The notes beneath the pieces were generated by a model. It saw only the letters and a program-made list of their open reading frames with translations. It was not told the DNA's origin and made no database searches. A DNA stretch of 64,000 nucleotides from Isosphaeraceae bacterium EP7 (lineage in GTDB: Bacteria > Planctomycetota > Planctomycetia > Isosphaerales > Isosphaeraceae): assembly GCA_038400315.1 (NCBI GenBank), contig CP151667.1, forward strand, positions 6,397,174 to 6,461,173, read 5' to 3'. A program made the position numbers and the translations under genes. This document shows positions 1,647 to 9,713 of this stretch, in pieces. Position 1 is the first letter of the stretch, and every line of letters begins with the position of its first letter.

Positions 1647-2648
1647 ATGGACCAGTCGCTGATTTGCACCTCCAAGCAGGCCGATCCCTACGGCGAGCTG
1701 AAGATTTTTGCGGGCAAGGCCAGCAAAGACCTGGCCGCAAAAATCTGCGAGTACCTGACCATCTCCTGCGCCAAGTCCGAGGCCATGGTCTTCAGCGAGG
1801 GCAATGTCTTCGTCAGGGTCCTTGAGAACGTGCGCGGCCGCGACGTCTTCATCGTCCAGGGGACCGAGCAGCCGGTCAACGACAACTTCATGGAGCTGCT
1901 CTTCTGGATCGACGCCTTCAAGCGCGCGAGCGCCACCCAGGTCACCGCCGTCATCCCCTTCTTCTCCTACGCCAAGGGGGACAAGAAAGATGAGCCACGC
2001 GTCTCCATCCGCGCCCGCGTCTGCGCCGACTGCCTGGAGGCCGCCGGGGCCGACCGCGTCCTGACGCTCGACCTCCACAGCCCGCAAATCCAGGGGTTCT
2101 TCCGGATCCCCGTCGACCACCTCTACGCCATGCCCGTCCTGGCCGACTACTTCCGCAAGAAGCAGATCGAGGACCTGGTCATCGCCTCGCCCGACGTCGG
2201 CTTCAGCAAGCAGGCCAACAAGTTCGCCAAGCTGATGAAGACCTCGTTCGTCATCGGCAACAAGACCCGGGCCGACCACACCGAGACCGCCGAGGTGCTC
2301 GACATCATCGGTTCCGTCGAGGGGAAGAACGTCCTGATCGTCGACGACTTCACCATCTCCGGCGGCACCCTCATCGAGATGGCCCACGCCTGCAAGGCCC
2401 GAGGCGCCAAGGACGTCTACGCCTGCGTCTCGCACGGCGTCTTCTCGCTGGGCTCGGCCGCCAAGATCGCCGCCAGCCCCATCAAGGAGCTGGTCCTCAC
2501 CGACACCATCGGTTATCGAACCGAGCCCCTCCCCCCCAACTGCACCGTCGTCAGCGTCGCCCCCCTCTTCGCCCAGGCCATCCTCTCCATCCACAGCCGA
2601 GAGAGCGTCAGCCGCCTGTTCGAAGACCCGATGCCCGCCGGCGGCTGA
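1647..2648 (+). CDS. prs: Ribose-phosphate pyrophosphokinase (PRPP synthetase)
   Basis: Makes PRPP from ribose 5-phosphate and ATP in the cytoplasm, supplying purine, pyrimidine, His and Trp synthesis. At 333 residues it has the usual family length. Visible motifs are the flexible-loop region FFSYAKGDKKDEPRVSIRA, the LTLDLHSPQIQGFF stretch that follows it, and the PRPP-binding loop VLIVDDFTISGGTLIE. That loop reads TISGGT rather than the common class I form DT(A/G)GT, and the following HGVF also recalls class II (plant-type) enzymes. The N-terminal half looks class I. An AGGTGAG precedes the start. No operon partner is evident; the PEP-CTERM genes downstream have their own leaders. The pyrimidine genes that use PRPP lie about 32 kb away. 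Confidence 0.93.
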   Translation: MDQSLICTSKQADPYGELKIFAGKASKDLAAKICEYLTISCAKSEAMVFSEGNVFVRVLENVRGRDVFIVQGTEQPVNDNFMELLFWIDAFKRASATQVTAVIPFFSYAKGDKKDEPRVSIRARVCADCLEAAGADRVLTLDLHSPQIQGFFRIPVDHLYAMPVLADYFRKKQIEDLVIASPDVGFSKQANKFAKLMKTSFVIGNKTRADHTETAEVLDIIGSVEGKNVLIVDDFTISGGTLIEMAHACKARGAKDVYACVSHGVFSLGSAAKIAASPIKELVLTDTIGYRTEPLPPNCTVVSVAPLFAQAILSIHSRESVSRLFEDPMPAGG

Positions 2649-2663
2649 GTCGAAATCCTGAGA

Positions 2664-2765
2664 TTGACACCCCCCGATCTCGCGGTTACCTTCGCCGCCA
2701 TCCCCTGCGCATGCAACCAAGACAAGGTCGTCGGGTCGGTGCGCGGGGCACACGGATGGCCCCCC
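2664..2765 (+). promoter_or_regulatory. Repeated leader element, copy 1 of 3
   Basis: The ~100 bp before the first PEP-CTERM paralogue begins with TTGACA (2664-2669). It contains GATCTC ten or so bases on, GCATGCAA near 2708, and the block GGTCGTCGGGTCGGTGC. Copies 2 and 3 carry the same blocks at matching positions before the other two paralogues. TTGACA could be a -35 box, but the hexamer 17 bases further on (TACCTT) is a weak -10. Whether the element acts as promoter DNA or leader RNA cannot be told from sequence alone. Confidence 0.55.
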
Positions 2766-3569
2766 ATGCTTTCCTCATGGAAGCGGTTTGCGGCGAAGAG
2801 CCTCACCCTCGTCGCGATCTCTGTGTTCGCCTCGGAGTCCGAAGCCTCCAATCTGGTCACGAGTTACGACCAATGGAGGACGTTCCCCGACCAGTCGATC
2901 ACGGTTCCCGGAGACACACCCTTCCAGGGCCTCACGTTCCAGTCCGGCAACACATCGATGGCGGGCAAGATCCCGGAGTTCGTCCCTTCCCCGGACGACT
3001 TTCCCGTATTTACCGGGACGAGGCATCCGTTCACCGCGACGGATCAGGGATCGTTCCTCATGTTCGTCCATTTCGACCGTCCTGAAGGGGGTGAATCCTC
3101 GTCGGAACCCTTACGCGTCTATCTCGCGATCAAGGGGACATTCCAAGGCCAGCTCGGCGGCTATTCCGTTGACCCGAGGAAGGATTATCCTTCGATCGGC
3201 GGCAAATACACCGGCAACGTCGAATCGGTCCGGGTCAGCGGGATGACGCTCGACGGCCAGCTTCGCTCCGCCGAGATCACCGACCCCAAGCAGGTGGTCG
3301 ACCCCGCCCTGATCGCCAGCGTCGTCGAAGGCACCAACATCCCCGCGTCGTTGGTCGACGCCTTCCTGCACCTCGACCGCTACAGCGTCAAGGGTGATAT
3401 CGGCGTCAAGTCCACAAACTTCAAGCGGCAGCTCAATCTGACCCTCGCCGCCACCTCTCCCGCCCCCGAGCCGGTGCCCGAGCCCACCACCCTCCTCACC
3501 TTCGCGGCGCTCATCGGCGGCCTCGCCTATCGTCGGCTCCGCCCTCACGCCACCCCAGCCTCGGCCTGA
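2766..3569 (+). CDS. PEP-CTERM sorting domain protein, tandem paralogue 1
   Basis: A secreted protein of 267 residues. It has an N-terminal signal peptide (MLSSWKRFAAKSL, hydrophobic core, then cleavage near SEASN) and ends with a PEP-CTERM anchor: VPEPTTLLTF, a transmembrane stretch, and a basic YRRLRP tail. This signal is recognised by the exosortase/EpsH system in bacteria that make exopolysaccharide. The body is an uncharacterised beta-rich domain that aligns with the next two genes (LVT-YDQ, LDG, DPSK/DPKQ, LHLDRYS blocks). An upstream in-frame extension to 2664 would add the leader as protein; I chose the ATG at 2766 because it begins the signal peptide. Function of the body is unknown. 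Confidence 0.8.
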   Translation: MLSSWKRFAAKSLTLVAISVFASESEASNLVTSYDQWRTFPDQSITVPGDTPFQGLTFQSGNTSMAGKIPEFVPSPDDFPVFTGTRHPFTATDQGSFLMFVHFDRPEGGESSSEPLRVYLAIKGTFQGQLGGYSVDPRKDYPSIGGKYTGNVESVRVSGMTLDGQLRSAEITDPKQVVDPALIASVVEGTNIPASLVDAFLHLDRYSVKGDIGVKSTNFKRQLNLTLAATSPAPEPVPEPTTLLTFAALIGGLAYRRLRPHATPASA

Positions 3570-3750
3570 GCTCAAGTCGCCGACCGTTGATCCGATCCAA
3601 AGGCTCGGCCTGAGCACCCGCGGGCCCGGGCCCTCAGCCAATTCGAAGTGGCCTCGCAGGCAATCTCGCGACGAGAACGACCCGAGAATTGTCGGGATCT
3701 TGGCCAGCTCGGGATCCAAGGACCGCCGACGGCGAGACGTCAAGTTGGGA

Positions 3751-3852
3751 TTGACACAACTCGATCCCGCGGCGACCATCGCCGCGATTCCCTCCGCGTG
3801 CATCTTCGACACGGTCGTCGGATCGATGCAGGGGGCGCACGGATGCGACCTA
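3751..3852 (+). promoter_or_regulatory. Repeated leader element, copy 2 of 3
   Basis: TTGACA at 3751-3756 is followed by GATCCC, GCGTGCAT and GGTCGTCGGATCGATGC, in the same order and almost the same spacing as copy 1. TTGACA sits 102 bases from the ATG in both. The upstream stretch 3570-3750 has no gene, and I see nothing else in it beyond a GC-rich segment near 3620-3640. Confidence 0.55.
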
Positions 3853-4620
3853 ATGCTCTCCTCGCGGATGCTCCCGACGACAGCCCTCGTCCTCGCCCTG
3901 CTCGGCTCAATCGCCCCGGCAACCCCTGCTTCGGCCTCAACCCTGGTCACCTTCTGGGATCAGCGACACATCTTCAGTGAGAATTCATACCAGCTCTCGG
4001 CTGACCCCTCGTTCGGTGGCACGGCGATCAAGGGGGAGCGAGGGATTGCAGGTGTATTCGGCCCGCGATACACGTCAGACGGCATGTCAGACGGTACCCT
4101 GTGGCACGCGACCGACTCGAATTCGTTCGCCATCATTGCAAACTTCATCGTCCCCTCGGACACCCAGAACGATACGGGCCGCCGAGTCTGGGTCACGCTC
4201 GAAGGCTCCTACACCGGGGACCTGACAGGCGGAGACCGGTTTGGCAGGATGAGCGGCTCCTATACCGGCCAGGTCAATTCCATTCACCTCGGTGGCTCGA
4301 CCCTCGACGGAGAACGAGTCTCCCTCGACATCACAGATCCCTCGAAGCCCATCGATTACACCGCAGTCTCCCGATCCATCGAGGGAACGGACGTCCCGCT
4401 TGCCCTGATCGACGGCTTCCTTCATCTCAACCGCTACAGCATCTCCGGCTACATCGGCGGCGGCCACTACGATGTCCGCCTGCTCACCCTGAACATCGCC
4501 GGCGGCCCCGCCCCCGAGCCGGTCCCCGAGCCCGCCACGCTCCTCACCTTCGCGGCCCTGCTGGGTGGCCTCGCATACCGCCAGTTCCGCAGCAACGCGA
4601 GCCCAGTACCAGCCGTCTGA
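3853..4620 (+). CDS. PEP-CTERM sorting domain protein, tandem paralogue 2
   Basis: Secreted protein of 255 residues and a paralogue of its two neighbours. Signal peptide MLSSRMLPTTALVLALLGSI is followed by cleavage around ASAS. The central domain shares ADPSFGGT, SYTGQVNSIHLGGSTLDG, DITDPSKPIDY and GFLHLNRYSISG with paralogue 3. The C-terminus has VPEPATLLTF, a hydrophobic helix and a basic tail (YRQFR). The start at 3853 heads the signal peptide; the second Met (3868) is an alternative. The 3' flank (GAGCCCTGGCGCCGAGGCG) resembles that after paralogue 3, so whole transcription units seem to have been duplicated. The role is unknown; the anchor implies surface or matrix localisation. Confidence 0.8.
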   Translation: MLSSRMLPTTALVLALLGSIAPATPASASTLVTFWDQRHIFSENSYQLSADPSFGGTAIKGERGIAGVFGPRYTSDGMSDGTLWHATDSNSFAIIANFIVPSDTQNDTGRRVWVTLEGSYTGDLTGGDRFGRMSGSYTGQVNSIHLGGSTLDGERVSLDITDPSKPIDYTAVSRSIEGTDVPLALIDGFLHLNRYSISGYIGGGHYDVRLLTLNIAGGPAPEPVPEPATLLTFAALLGGLAYRQFRSNASPVPAV

Positions 4621-4771
4621 GCCCTGGCGCCGAGGCGAATCCACCGCGGAGCCCAGCCCGGCCACTTCGCGTGGGCGGCTATCCGATCGTCAGCCGTGCA
4701 ATTGTCCATTCACGGCTCCAAGGACAGGCTTCCGGGGCCACGAGAGCGGCGACCGACTCAGACGATCGGGA

Positions 4772-4871
4772 TTGACATCATCCGATCTCAAAGCGATTGT
4801 CTCCACATCCCCCTCGCATGCAACCACGACAGGGCTGTCGGGTCGATGCCCGGGGACCATGAAAGCCCCCA
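4772..4871 (+). promoter_or_regulatory. Repeated leader element, copy 3 of 3
   Basis: TTGACA at 4772-4777, then GATCTC, GCATGCAACCA, and GGCTGTCGGGTCGATGC, again about 100 bases before the start codon. A small length difference between TTGACA and GCATGCA shifts the reading frame relative to copies 1 and 2. The shared signal is therefore nucleic acid, not an N-terminal peptide. Confidence 0.55.
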
Positions 4872-5660
4872 ATGACCACGTCATGGATGTGTCGCACCGC
4901 GAGTCTCCTCGTCCTCACCCTGATCGGCGCGATCGCCCCGGTGTCACCCGCCTCGGCATCGACCCTCGTCACCTACTACGACAAGATGCGCAACTTCGAC
5001 AATGATTCGGCCCCCGTTTCGGCCGATCCATCGTTTGCCGGCACAACGATCGCGCTGAACTATGGCCCCATTTCGACAGGTGTTCTGTCCGATTTGACAT
5101 ACTCGCCGATCGATGGCCGATATCGCGGGACCGACCAGGGGACCTTCACGGTTTTCACCTACTTCAATCGCCCGATCAGCGGTCGGCGTGATTCTTTCGA
5201 TCCTGATCCGAGCGATCCCTTCCCGCCGTATGTCGCGATCAGCGGCACTTATATCGGGCAAATCGTCGGAGGTGGTGTTGAGGACAGAGCCGGTGGCAGC
5301 TATACCGTCCAGGTCAACCATCTCTACCTCTCCGGAATGACTGCCGACGGGGACCACCTCTCAATCGACACCTCCGACCCCTCGAAGCCCATCGATTACA
5401 ACGCAGTCTCCCGACTCCTTGAGGGGAGGGATATTCCCCTGGCGTTGGTCGACGGCTACCTCCATCTCGACCGCTACAGTGGCACCGGCTCGATCACCGA
5501 TGGTCACCGGAGCACGAAATTGCTCACCCTGACCATCGCCGGTGGCCCCGCCCCCGAGCCGGTGCCCGAGCCCGCCACCGTCCTCACATTCGTTGCCCTC
5601 ATCGGTGGCCTCGCCTACCGTCGCTTCAACAGCCCGGCGAGCCCGGCACCGGATTGCTGA
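4872..5660 (+). CDS. PEP-CTERM sorting domain protein, tandem paralogue 3
   Basis: Secreted protein of 262 residues, closest to paralogue 2. Signal peptide MTTSWMCRTASLLVLTLIG leads to a cleavage region near SPASAS. The body includes STLVTYYDKMRNF, GSYTVQVNHLYLSGMTADG, SDPSKPIDYNAVSR and GYLHLDRYSGTGS. A C-terminal PEP-CTERM anchor follows (VPEPATVLTF, hydrophobic helix, YRRF). It is the last of three head-to-tail copies, all under the same kind of leader. The bodies have diverged far more than the anchor and the leader. No enzymatic motif is visible. Surface or matrix protein is inferred from the anchor only. Confidence 0.8.
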   Translation: MTTSWMCRTASLLVLTLIGAIAPVSPASASTLVTYYDKMRNFDNDSAPVSADPSFAGTTIALNYGPISTGVLSDLTYSPIDGRYRGTDQGTFTVFTYFNRPISGRRDSFDPDPSDPFPPYVAISGTYIGQIVGGGVEDRAGGSYTVQVNHLYLSGMTADGDHLSIDTSDPSKPIDYNAVSRLLEGRDIPLALVDGYLHLDRYSGTGSITDGHRSTKLLTLTIAGGPAPEPVPEPATVLTFVALIGGLAYRRFNSPASPAPDC

Positions 5661-6044
5661 GCCCTCGCATCGAGGCGAACGAACCGACCGCGACCGAAGC
5701 CAGCCCGGCCACCCCGCAACAGCGTCGATTCAATCGACGTCGGCGAGGTCGATCGGGCCGTTTCATGCGCCAGAGCGCGGGCCGACACTGGTGGGGCGAA
5801 TGGTGGCCCTGCCAGCATTCGCCGTCCGGTCGGGGAGCGGACACAAATCCGCCTCAGGTGGACATAATTTCGACGTGCGCCGCGATGATTCGAGCGACAC
5901 CCGCGTCGATTCGCCCGAGAATCAGGCATTTTGGGCCCTCGAACGACCAGGGCATGGGGCATGCATTGACGCTTGATTGACCGGCCATGCACGGCGGCAA
6001 TCGGCCGTGCCGGGTGGACCGGCCCTCCCCCCCCCGAGGTTTCC
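5661..6044 (+). other. Intergenic region with a perfect palindrome
   Basis: No gene is supported in these 384 bases. At 5723-5739 there is a near-perfect palindrome, CGTCGATT-c-AATCGACG, that could be an operator or a short transcript-ending hairpin. A CCCGAGG 6-12 bases before 6045 is the probable ribosome-binding site of the DUF1559 gene. Confidence 0.4.
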
Positions 6045-7067
6045 ATGCGTCGAAACGCATTCACGCTCATCGAGCTTTTGGTGGTCATCTCGATCATCGC
6101 CGTGCTCATCGCCCTCTTGCTCCCCGCCGTGCAGAGCGCCCGCGAGGCCGCCAGGCGCATCCAGTGCACGAATAACCTCAAGCAGATGGGGTTGGCCGTC
6201 CACAACTATGAGTCGACCGTCGGCGGTCTGCCCCCCACGCTCTGCATCACTGGGGTCGGCACGACCGTTACCTGGACGAACAGCTTCGGGCCGCACGCGC
6301 GGGTACTCCCCTATCTGGAACAGGGGAACATCTTCAACACCACCAACTTCACCGTTGATATGCAGTCGCCCCCCAACACCACGGTGCTGGCTCAGGTGAT
6401 CGGCACGCTCATCTGCCCCAGCGAGATCAAGCCCAACACCAGGCCCCTGGCCGACGGCACGCGTTATGGCATCTCCAACTATGGCTACGTCACCGGCGAC
6501 TGGTACGTCTGGGGCGGCCTGGGCAGCACCCGCCAGAACCGGGGCGCCTTTGGCGTCAACCTCTCGCGCGGCTGGTCGAGCTTCCAGGATGGCACCTCGA
6601 ACACGTTGCTGATGAGCGAGGGAAAAGCCTTCTTCGACTACATCCGCGACTGCGGCACGCTCGCCAACATCAACAACCCCGACATCATCCCGCCGCCCAA
6701 CGCCGACCCCTACACCGTCGCCCCCGAATACCTCTCCGGTTGCGCCCTGCGGCCGCAGGAGGGGCGCACCCAGTGGTTCGAGTCGGGCTCGCACCACAAC
6801 GGGATCACCACCGCATGGCCCCCCAACAAGGTCATCCCCGGCGGCCCCAACCGCGTCTACCCCGACAGCGACCTCAATGGCAGCCGAGAGAAGCTTGGCA
6901 GGCCCAGCTATGCCGCGTCCACCGCGCGAAGCTTCCACCCCGGTGGCGTCAACACGCTCTTCGGCGATGGATCCGTCAAATTTGTGAAATCCACCATTGA
7001 TGGCATGATATGGCGTTCGCTCGGCACAGTCGCCGGCGGCGAGATCGTCTCGGCCGACGCATTCTGA
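6045..7067 (+). CDS. DUF1559 domain-containing prepilin-like protein
   Basis: 340 residues. It begins with a class III/type IV pilin-type signal, [16 protein letters not shown], with the conserved Glu five residues after the predicted cleavage site. A long hydrophobic helix and the typical [20 protein letters not shown] follow. The C-terminal part has the DUF1559 signature region around [17 protein letters not shown] (the H-x9-DG motif). This family is massively expanded in planctomycetes, and its members are thought to be pseudopilin-like surface or periplasmic proteins. Start chosen at 6045 because the pilin leader begins there. Specific function is unknown. Confidence 0.93.
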
Positions 7068-9185: not shown

Positions 9186-9713
9186 ATGCCCAGACGCACG
9201 CCCAGCCTCCTCGCCGCCGCACTCGTCGCGCTCGCCACAGTCGCGGCCTCCGCTCCGGCCAGGGCCGACCTCGTCACCGTGCTCACGGCCACCGTCAGCG
9301 ACGCCGGCGGGGGCGCCTCGCTCTACCTGTACACCCTGAGCAACGAGCCGGACAGCACCCTGCCCGTCGTCCAGTTCGACCTCGCCGTCGACGCCACCGC
9401 CGACCTCCAGGACATCACCGGCCCCGCCGGCTGGGCCTTCGACTACACCGCGGGCGCCACCACCGTCTCCTTCTTCCTCGACACCGCCGACGGGATCCTC
9501 CCCGGCACCTCCGCCGAGTTCTCCTTCACCAGCCTCCTGGGCCCGGTCCTGTCCGACTACGCCATCACCGGCGCCGCCCCCCCCATCATCGGCGTCAACT
9601 CAGGCAGCATCCTCGCCCCCGGAACTTCCACCGTCGTCCCCGAGCCCGCCACCCTGGCCCTCCTCGGCCTGGGCCTGGCCGGCCTCGCCGCCGCGCGATC
9701 GCGCATCCGTTAA
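9186..9713 (+). CDS. PEP-CTERM sorting domain protein
   Basis: Secreted 175-residue protein. Signal peptide MPRRTPSLLAAALVALATV is cleaved near APARA. A small beta-rich body (LVTVLTATVSDAGGGASLYL through the region before STVVP) looks like a cohesin/dockerin-type or Ig-like sandwich. The C-terminal sorting signal is VVPEPATLALLGLGLAGLAA with a basic RSRIR tail. It is not a paralogue of the three tandem PEP-CTERM genes upstream and has no copy of their leader. GGGGAA 8-13 bases before the ATG supports the start. Role unknown. Confidence 0.82.
   Translation: MPRRTPSLLAAALVALATVAASAPARADLVTVLTATVSDAGGGASLYLYTLSNEPDSTLPVVQFDLAVDATADLQDITGPAGWAFDYTAGATTVSFFLDTADGILPGTSAEFSFTSLLGPVLSDYAITGAAPPIIGVNSGSILAPGTSTVVPEPATLALLGLGLAGLAAARSRIR

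Follow-up and report, generated by a model that had tools for sequence, protein, structure and literature searches.

A shared promoter-like leader before three tandem PEP-CTERM genes of Isosphaeraceae bacterium EP7

The window analysed here, a stretch of 64,000 nucleotides (64 kb) from contig CP151667.1 of Isosphaeraceae bacterium EP7, contained three tandem PEP-CTERM genes directly behind prs, the gene of ribose-phosphate pyrophosphokinase. Each of the three genes was preceded by the same leader, a block of about 106 bases that started with GRGATTGACA and ran to the ATG. The leader was best read as a promoter and 5′ untranslated region (UTR) that were retained under moderate constraint after tandem duplication, each gene having its own start, and we gave this reading a probability of about 0.7. 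The source genome is that of a planctomycete and comprises 7.2 Mb on five contigs. The leaders are listed below with their scores against R1, a profile built from their own sequences, which recovered them by construction (E = 1.6e-29 to 8.5e-27, 95.7–104.5 bits):

2660 to 2765, + strand: leader copy 1, with the inverted repeat, the promoter-like elements and the presumed 5′ UTR; 104.5 bits
3747 to 3852, + strand: leader copy 2; 103.6 bits
4768 to 4871, + strand: leader copy 3, with two single-base deletions compared with the other copies; 95.7 bits

The tandem genes with their common leader had been pointed out in a preliminary description of this DNA, and the elements named there were all in register in the three leaders: TTGACA, CGATC, GC(A/G)TGCA and GTCGG(G/A)TCG(G/A)TGC. 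The distance to the ATG was nearly constant, as described, with TTGACA (2664, 3751, and 4772) starting 102, 102, and 100 nucleotides upstream. The length change in copy 3 was likewise present and consisted of single bases absent at alignment columns 45 and 110, which broke the reading frame. The pairwise identities of the leaders in a MAFFT alignment were 79/106 (copies 1 and 2), 75/104 (copies 1 and 3), and 71/104 (copies 2 and 3), i.e., 68–75%, and 63 of the 106 columns were invariant across the three copies. When leader 1 was used as the query, BLAST found leader 3 (73% identity, E = 2.6e-9) and missed leader 2. Gapped identities were inflated, with leader 1 against shuffled leader 2 averaging 0.585 and reaching 0.70 at the 99th percentile, and we therefore relied on the gap-free figure for copies 1 and 2 and on the three-way invariance.

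The leader evolved more slowly than the four-fold synonymous sites of the genes that follow it. The identities at these sites were 40/76 (copies 1 and 2), 42/73 (copies 1 and 3), and 52/89 (copies 2 and 3), and the leader exceeded them significantly in the first two comparisons (one-sided Fisher test, p = 0.002 and p = 0.03, respectively). A single three-way test, which avoids the double counting of pairs, gave 63/104 invariant positions in the leader against 23/55 at the four-fold sites (Fisher p = 0.018). The proteins themselves had diverged strongly, in agreement with the preliminary description, and their identities to copy 1 were 42 and 45%.

Three promoter-like elements were found by pattern match, one at the front of each leader:

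2664 to 2692, + strand: TTGACA-17-TACCTT, copy 1
3751 to 3779, + strand: TTGACA-17-GACCAT, copy 2
4772 to 4800, + strand: TTGACA-17-GATTGT, copy 3

Measured by sigma-70 criteria, the leaders had a perfect −35 box, a spacer of 17 bases and −10 boxes that matched 3/6 bases. Base 2 (A) and base 6 (T) of the second hexamer were invariant and its other four positions varied; these two bases are the most important ones of a −10 hexamer. The pattern TTGACA-N17-NANNNT occurred three times in the window, each time at a leader (0.40 expected), and these sites are homologous copies and not independent ones. The stricter TTGACA-N17-TANNNT had 21 sites in the genome compared with two for the reversed pattern. 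Seventeen of the 21 sites fell outside open reading frames (ORFs) predicted by a simple rule, compared with 16/48 for two other motifs (Fisher p = 0.0005), and in 14 of the 17 an ORF start lay at most 400 bases downstream. The site in copy 1 was counted inside an ORF only because TTGACA supplies the TTG with which its frame opens. The promoter-like geometry points to a likely regulatory role of the leader, and this part of what the preliminary description had proposed was retained.

An inverted repeat of 22 bp, GRGATTG-N8-CGATCYC, occupied alignment columns 6–27 and overlapped the −35 box in each copy:

2660 to 2681, no strand assigned: GAGATTG-N8-CGATCTC, copy 1
3747 to 3768, no strand assigned: GGGATTG-N8-CGATCCC, copy 2
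4768 to 4789, no strand assigned: GGGATTG-N8-CGATCTC, copy 3

Seven contiguous pairs, one of them a conserved T-G, were held in all three copies, and the pair at columns 7/26 was AU, GC, and GU across the copies. A conserved helix of this length whose loop did not exceed 12 bases appeared in 5/1500 column shuffles. The overlap with the −35 box suggested an operator, and the repeat is a candidate for one.

In the arrangement that we propose, tandem duplication of a PEP-CTERM gene behind prs would have produced the three copies within this lineage. A promoter and a 5′ UTR would have stayed with every copy, and each gene would thus be transcribed from its own start. The promoter would be of the housekeeping-sigma type (−35 TTGACA, 17-base spacer, −10 NANNNT), and transcription would start near alignment column 45–46, about position 2699 in copy 1. 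The last ~66 nucleotides would then probably be the 5′ UTR, which possibly folds. Since the candidate operator over the −35 box is common to the three leaders, the genes could be under the joint control of one shared regulator. Control by an operator or by a leader RNA is possible.

Several observations weighed against retained promoters under constraint. The excess of the leader over the four-fold sites was not significant for copies 2 and 3 (p = 0.10). The first ~52 bases 3′ of the stops were alike in copies 2 and 3 (41/52, with seven gap columns), and their local score of 57 was reached by 0/500 shuffles; the leader was thus not the sole preserved stretch, and part of the similarity was due to plain duplication. 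The count of 21 against two gave weak support, because the reversed controls were also low for motifs that show no regulon, namely TTGACA-N5-CGATC (80 vs. 6) and the inverted repeat (43 vs. 1 per strand). The built-in promoter scan, with at least 4/6 matches per hexamer, found no promoter at the leaders, since their −10 hexamers fall one base short at 3/6. The exact inverted repeat had six sites in the genome, three of them in the array, and of the others two lay within predicted coding frames and one was intergenic; with the matches elsewhere in coding frames bar one, no regulon was visible.

An alternative is that the leaders are alike by descent only, mutation having not yet erased them, and that no selection acts beyond a bare promoter. 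This was considered fairly unlikely. It would agree with the lack of further leader copies in the own genome and the family genomes, with the similarity between copies 2 and 3 in their 3′ flanks, and with the identity of leaders 2 and 3 being not significantly above that of the four-fold sites. However, the three-way invariance exceeded that of the four-fold sites, the conserved positions matched the promoter geometry and the inverted repeat, and outside the leader and the 3′ flank the intergenic stretches that precede leaders 2 and 3 had no recognisable similarity (169/500 shuffles as good). The preliminary description had associated recent duplication alone with a leader identity no higher than the synonymous identity and with the absence of other genomic copies; other copies were indeed absent, yet the leader identity was higher. 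An ordinary tandem duplication was available for comparison in another pair of adjoining PEP-CTERM paralogues with similar upstream DNA (G000:C1, starts 3058131 and 3059522; 168/211 residues identical). This pair is younger than the array, and in this single control the balance was reversed, the upstream DNA (77/107, gapped) being less conserved than its own four-fold sites (98/112). That the leader is coding, either extending the PEP-CTERM proteins at the N-terminus or forming an ORF upstream of their genes, was highly improbable. The main frame was open through the leader in copies 1 and 2, with TTG starts at 2664 and 3700, but copy 3 had an in-frame TGA four codons upstream of the ATG, which excluded a conserved peptide there. 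In addition, no phase showed a third-position excess (variable columns 14/33, 11/34, and 15/33), and the signal peptides began, by eye, at the assigned ATGs. The extension and the upstream ORF were rejected on the TGA and the flat phase distribution, and the earlier view that what is conserved is DNA or RNA and not a peptide was upheld. Out-of-frame peptides starting at 2711 (ATG), 3798 (GTG), and 4818 (ATG), near column 57, looked alike by eye but gained no support from the phase test of columns 57–109 (variable columns 8/18, 4/18, and 8/17).

It was also considered, as a doubtful alternative, that the whole block is transcribed and that, as a cis-regulatory RNA, it folds into hairpins which control how each gene is translated or how stable its mRNA is. 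The possible hairpins in the presumed 5′ UTR lay at alignment columns 49–94:

2703 to 2748, + strand: possible hairpin, copy 1
3790 to 3835, + strand: possible hairpin, copy 2
4810 to 4855, + strand: possible hairpin, copy 3

The RNAalifold energy of the 112-column alignment had a z of −4.0, and 0/1000 column shuffles were as low; the mean z of 23 overlapping coding windows was −0.85 (minimum −2.35), and that of the leader reverse strand was −2.5. Shuffles as low made up 3/400 for columns 46–98 and 7/400 for columns 46–111. However, the strongest signal (columns 1–45, z −5.2) coincided with the presumed promoter and is accounted for just as well by an operator, and the folds of the single presumed-UTR sequences did not surpass those of dinucleotide shuffles (z −1.15, −0.11, and −0.17). 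Two pairs changed on both sides, but 218/500 shuffles equalled that, and the covariation test suggested in the preliminary description gave a score within the shuffle range (equalled by 149/500). The second hairpin had 4/7 pairs unpaired in copy 3 and one in copy 1. Rfam identified no family in the leaders in a search of positions 2400–6200, its sole match (19.9 bits vs. a gathering score of 56) being on the other strand at 3550–3643. With three sequences only, no claim of RNA control could be made. A wider form of shared control, which we regard as unlikely, is a portable cassette in which the operator of a dimeric regulator over the −35 box and a structured 5′ UTR would allow one planctomycete lineage to switch a diversifying orphan set of exosortase-sorted surface proteins as a unit, apart from the other ~43 PEP-CTERM genes.

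The restriction of the leader to three genes was found at several levels of search. In the own genome, R1 gave nothing else above 18.6 bits among 150 scored of 1901 first-look candidates. The family search comprised 45 genomes including the own one and no genome of the same genus, with usually 84 first-look candidates scored per genome under stricter filters, and the best match outside the array in the 44 other genomes scored 22.2 bits. A structured model, R2, had one match with E ≤ 0.01 in the family genomes (25.3 bits), which was inside a dihydrolipoamide dehydrogenase-like coding frame and was therefore attributed to chance. Among the PEP-CTERM genes outside the array, the upstream DNA of 43 (42 above the tail cut-off and one below it, with starts set by a simple rule that misplaced the start of copy 2) contained the leader in 0/43 cases; the local scores were at most 32 against a shuffle maximum of 31 (n = 405), and two array genes scored 91–212 and 54–158 in the same comparison. 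R1 also had no match in 17 loci from 12 relatives matched by profile A2. Two shorter motifs were tried as traces of a genome-wide regulon and rejected. The 3′ block GTCGGRTCGRTGC had eight exact genome sites, three of them in the array, and four of the five others were inspected and had no leader around them; the fifth was on the minus strand. TTGACA-N5-CGATC had five exact sites, again with three in the array; the other two were without a leader, and one of them fell between two convergent coding frames.

The search of the whole genome and of relatives proposed in the preliminary description thus yielded no further copy, and its suggestion that the leader coordinates a surface-protein family at large was not borne out. 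By these sequence comparisons, the leader is not a general PEP-CTERM element of this genome. As no further copy of the leader and no match to the protein bodies was found, leader and proteins appear to form a set specific to this lineage. Elsewhere in the genome, the upstream DNA of two PEP-CTERM genes with tails at G000:C1 6196092 and 3055417 aligned locally with a score of 70 and was unrelated to the leader. One family relative (G028:C1) had neighboring PEP-CTERM tails at 4150816 and 4151560, possibly another tandem set, with no leader match.

A conserved element before PEP-CTERM genes has been described by Haft et al. (2006; PMC1569441), where it is of the sigma-54 type and reported from Proteobacteria only. 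It consists of −24 GG/−12 GC and an upstream activator motif, precedes 99/167 proteobacterial PEP-CTERM genes and ends 23–221 nucleotides upstream of the start codon. The present leader resembles this sigma-54/PrsR site as a conserved non-coding element, probably cis-regulatory, before several PEP-CTERM genes of one genome, but differs in being TTGACA-17-NANNNT and confined to three tandem paralogues. GG-N10-GC occurred once per leader, at column 93 (copy 1) or 92 (copies 2 and 3), and ended ~6 bases before the ATG. Being off-register among the leaders and so close to the ATG, it indicated that the leader is not the proteobacterial sigma-54/PrsR element. The wide presence of that element was not seen for the leader among the 43 other PEP-CTERM upstreams, no search for the sigma-54 site being made there. 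According to Xia et al. (2023; PMC9850573), an RpoN1-dependent pepA promoter was mapped in Aquincola tertiaricarbonis. There too a PEP-CTERM gene has its own promoter, behind an intergenic region of nearly 85 nucleotides; that promoter is sigma-54, and one gene is treated rather than a tandem set. Among the matches listed from the open-access literature, none described a leader of planctomycete PEP-CTERM genes. Haft et al. (PMC1569441) left more regulatory proteins and DNA motifs for PEP-CTERM genes to be found inside and outside Proteobacteria, and the leader is a small concrete planctomycete candidate. It suggests that planctomycete PEP-CTERM genes need not have one common genome-wide element, and it represents a duplicated surface-protein set in which the bodies diverge and the control region is held. 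The case is mostly ordinary and leaves the general picture unchanged.

The array and the gene in front of it were arranged as follows:

1647 to 2648, + strand: prs, ribose-phosphate pyrophosphokinase, with its stop 11 bases upstream of leader 1
2766 to 3569, + strand: PEP-CTERM protein 1, 267 amino acids, with a signal peptide (by eye), an orphan body and a PEP-CTERM tail
3853 to 4620, + strand: PEP-CTERM protein 2, 255 amino acids, with a PEP-CTERM tail and, by eye, a signal peptide
4872 to 5660, + strand: PEP-CTERM protein 3, 262 amino acids, with a PEP-CTERM tail and, by eye, a signal peptide

All three proteins had the features of exosortase substrates, i.e., the C-terminal PEP motif, a transmembrane helix and a basic end. 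Against NCBIfam TIGR02595, which has a cut-off of 16 bits, the tails scored 20.3, 17.1, and 16.0, so that copy 3 barely reached the threshold. An exosortase was present in the same genome (PF09721 match at G000:C1:1413946, 205.9 bits). The genome had 46 PEP-CTERM tails above the cut-off in total, by a short tail model that also exceeded its own cut-off in 2/14 control genomes. The protein bodies, with signal peptide and tail removed, were searched for in 391 other genomes sampled across the phylum without a match at E ≤ 0.001. Profile A2 matched 12/58 relatives, restricted to the C-terminal part (positions 184–260 of 261), and as a query against the named genome collection A2 recovered no relative. 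For copy 1, AlphaFold gave a model with a mean predicted local distance difference test (pLDDT) score of 52, which had no Foldseek match at E ≤ 0.001, and its fold was not used.

The nearest relatives of prs in the named genome collection were from Isosphaeraceae, Singulisphaera, Tautonia, and similar, which would place the window in or near Isosphaeraceae. Of 80 prs loci fetched, many of which end at contig borders, 34 were tested, and matches to the three array proteins or to the 7495 ORF (E ≤ 1e-3) were present in 0/34. A PEP-CTERM regular expression matched 2/80 loci, and by eye neither match had a hydrophobic tail. A fourth PEP-CTERM gene (tail 9636–9704, + strand) lay ~4 kb downstream of the array, and its upstream DNA was without the leader (scores 20, 16, and 18). 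The array was adjoined by a DUF1559 protein (6045–7067, + strand) that carried an H-X9-DG domain and whose N-terminus resembled that of type IV pilins; a DUF1559 protein was also found in 3/34 prs loci, each time upstream of prs.

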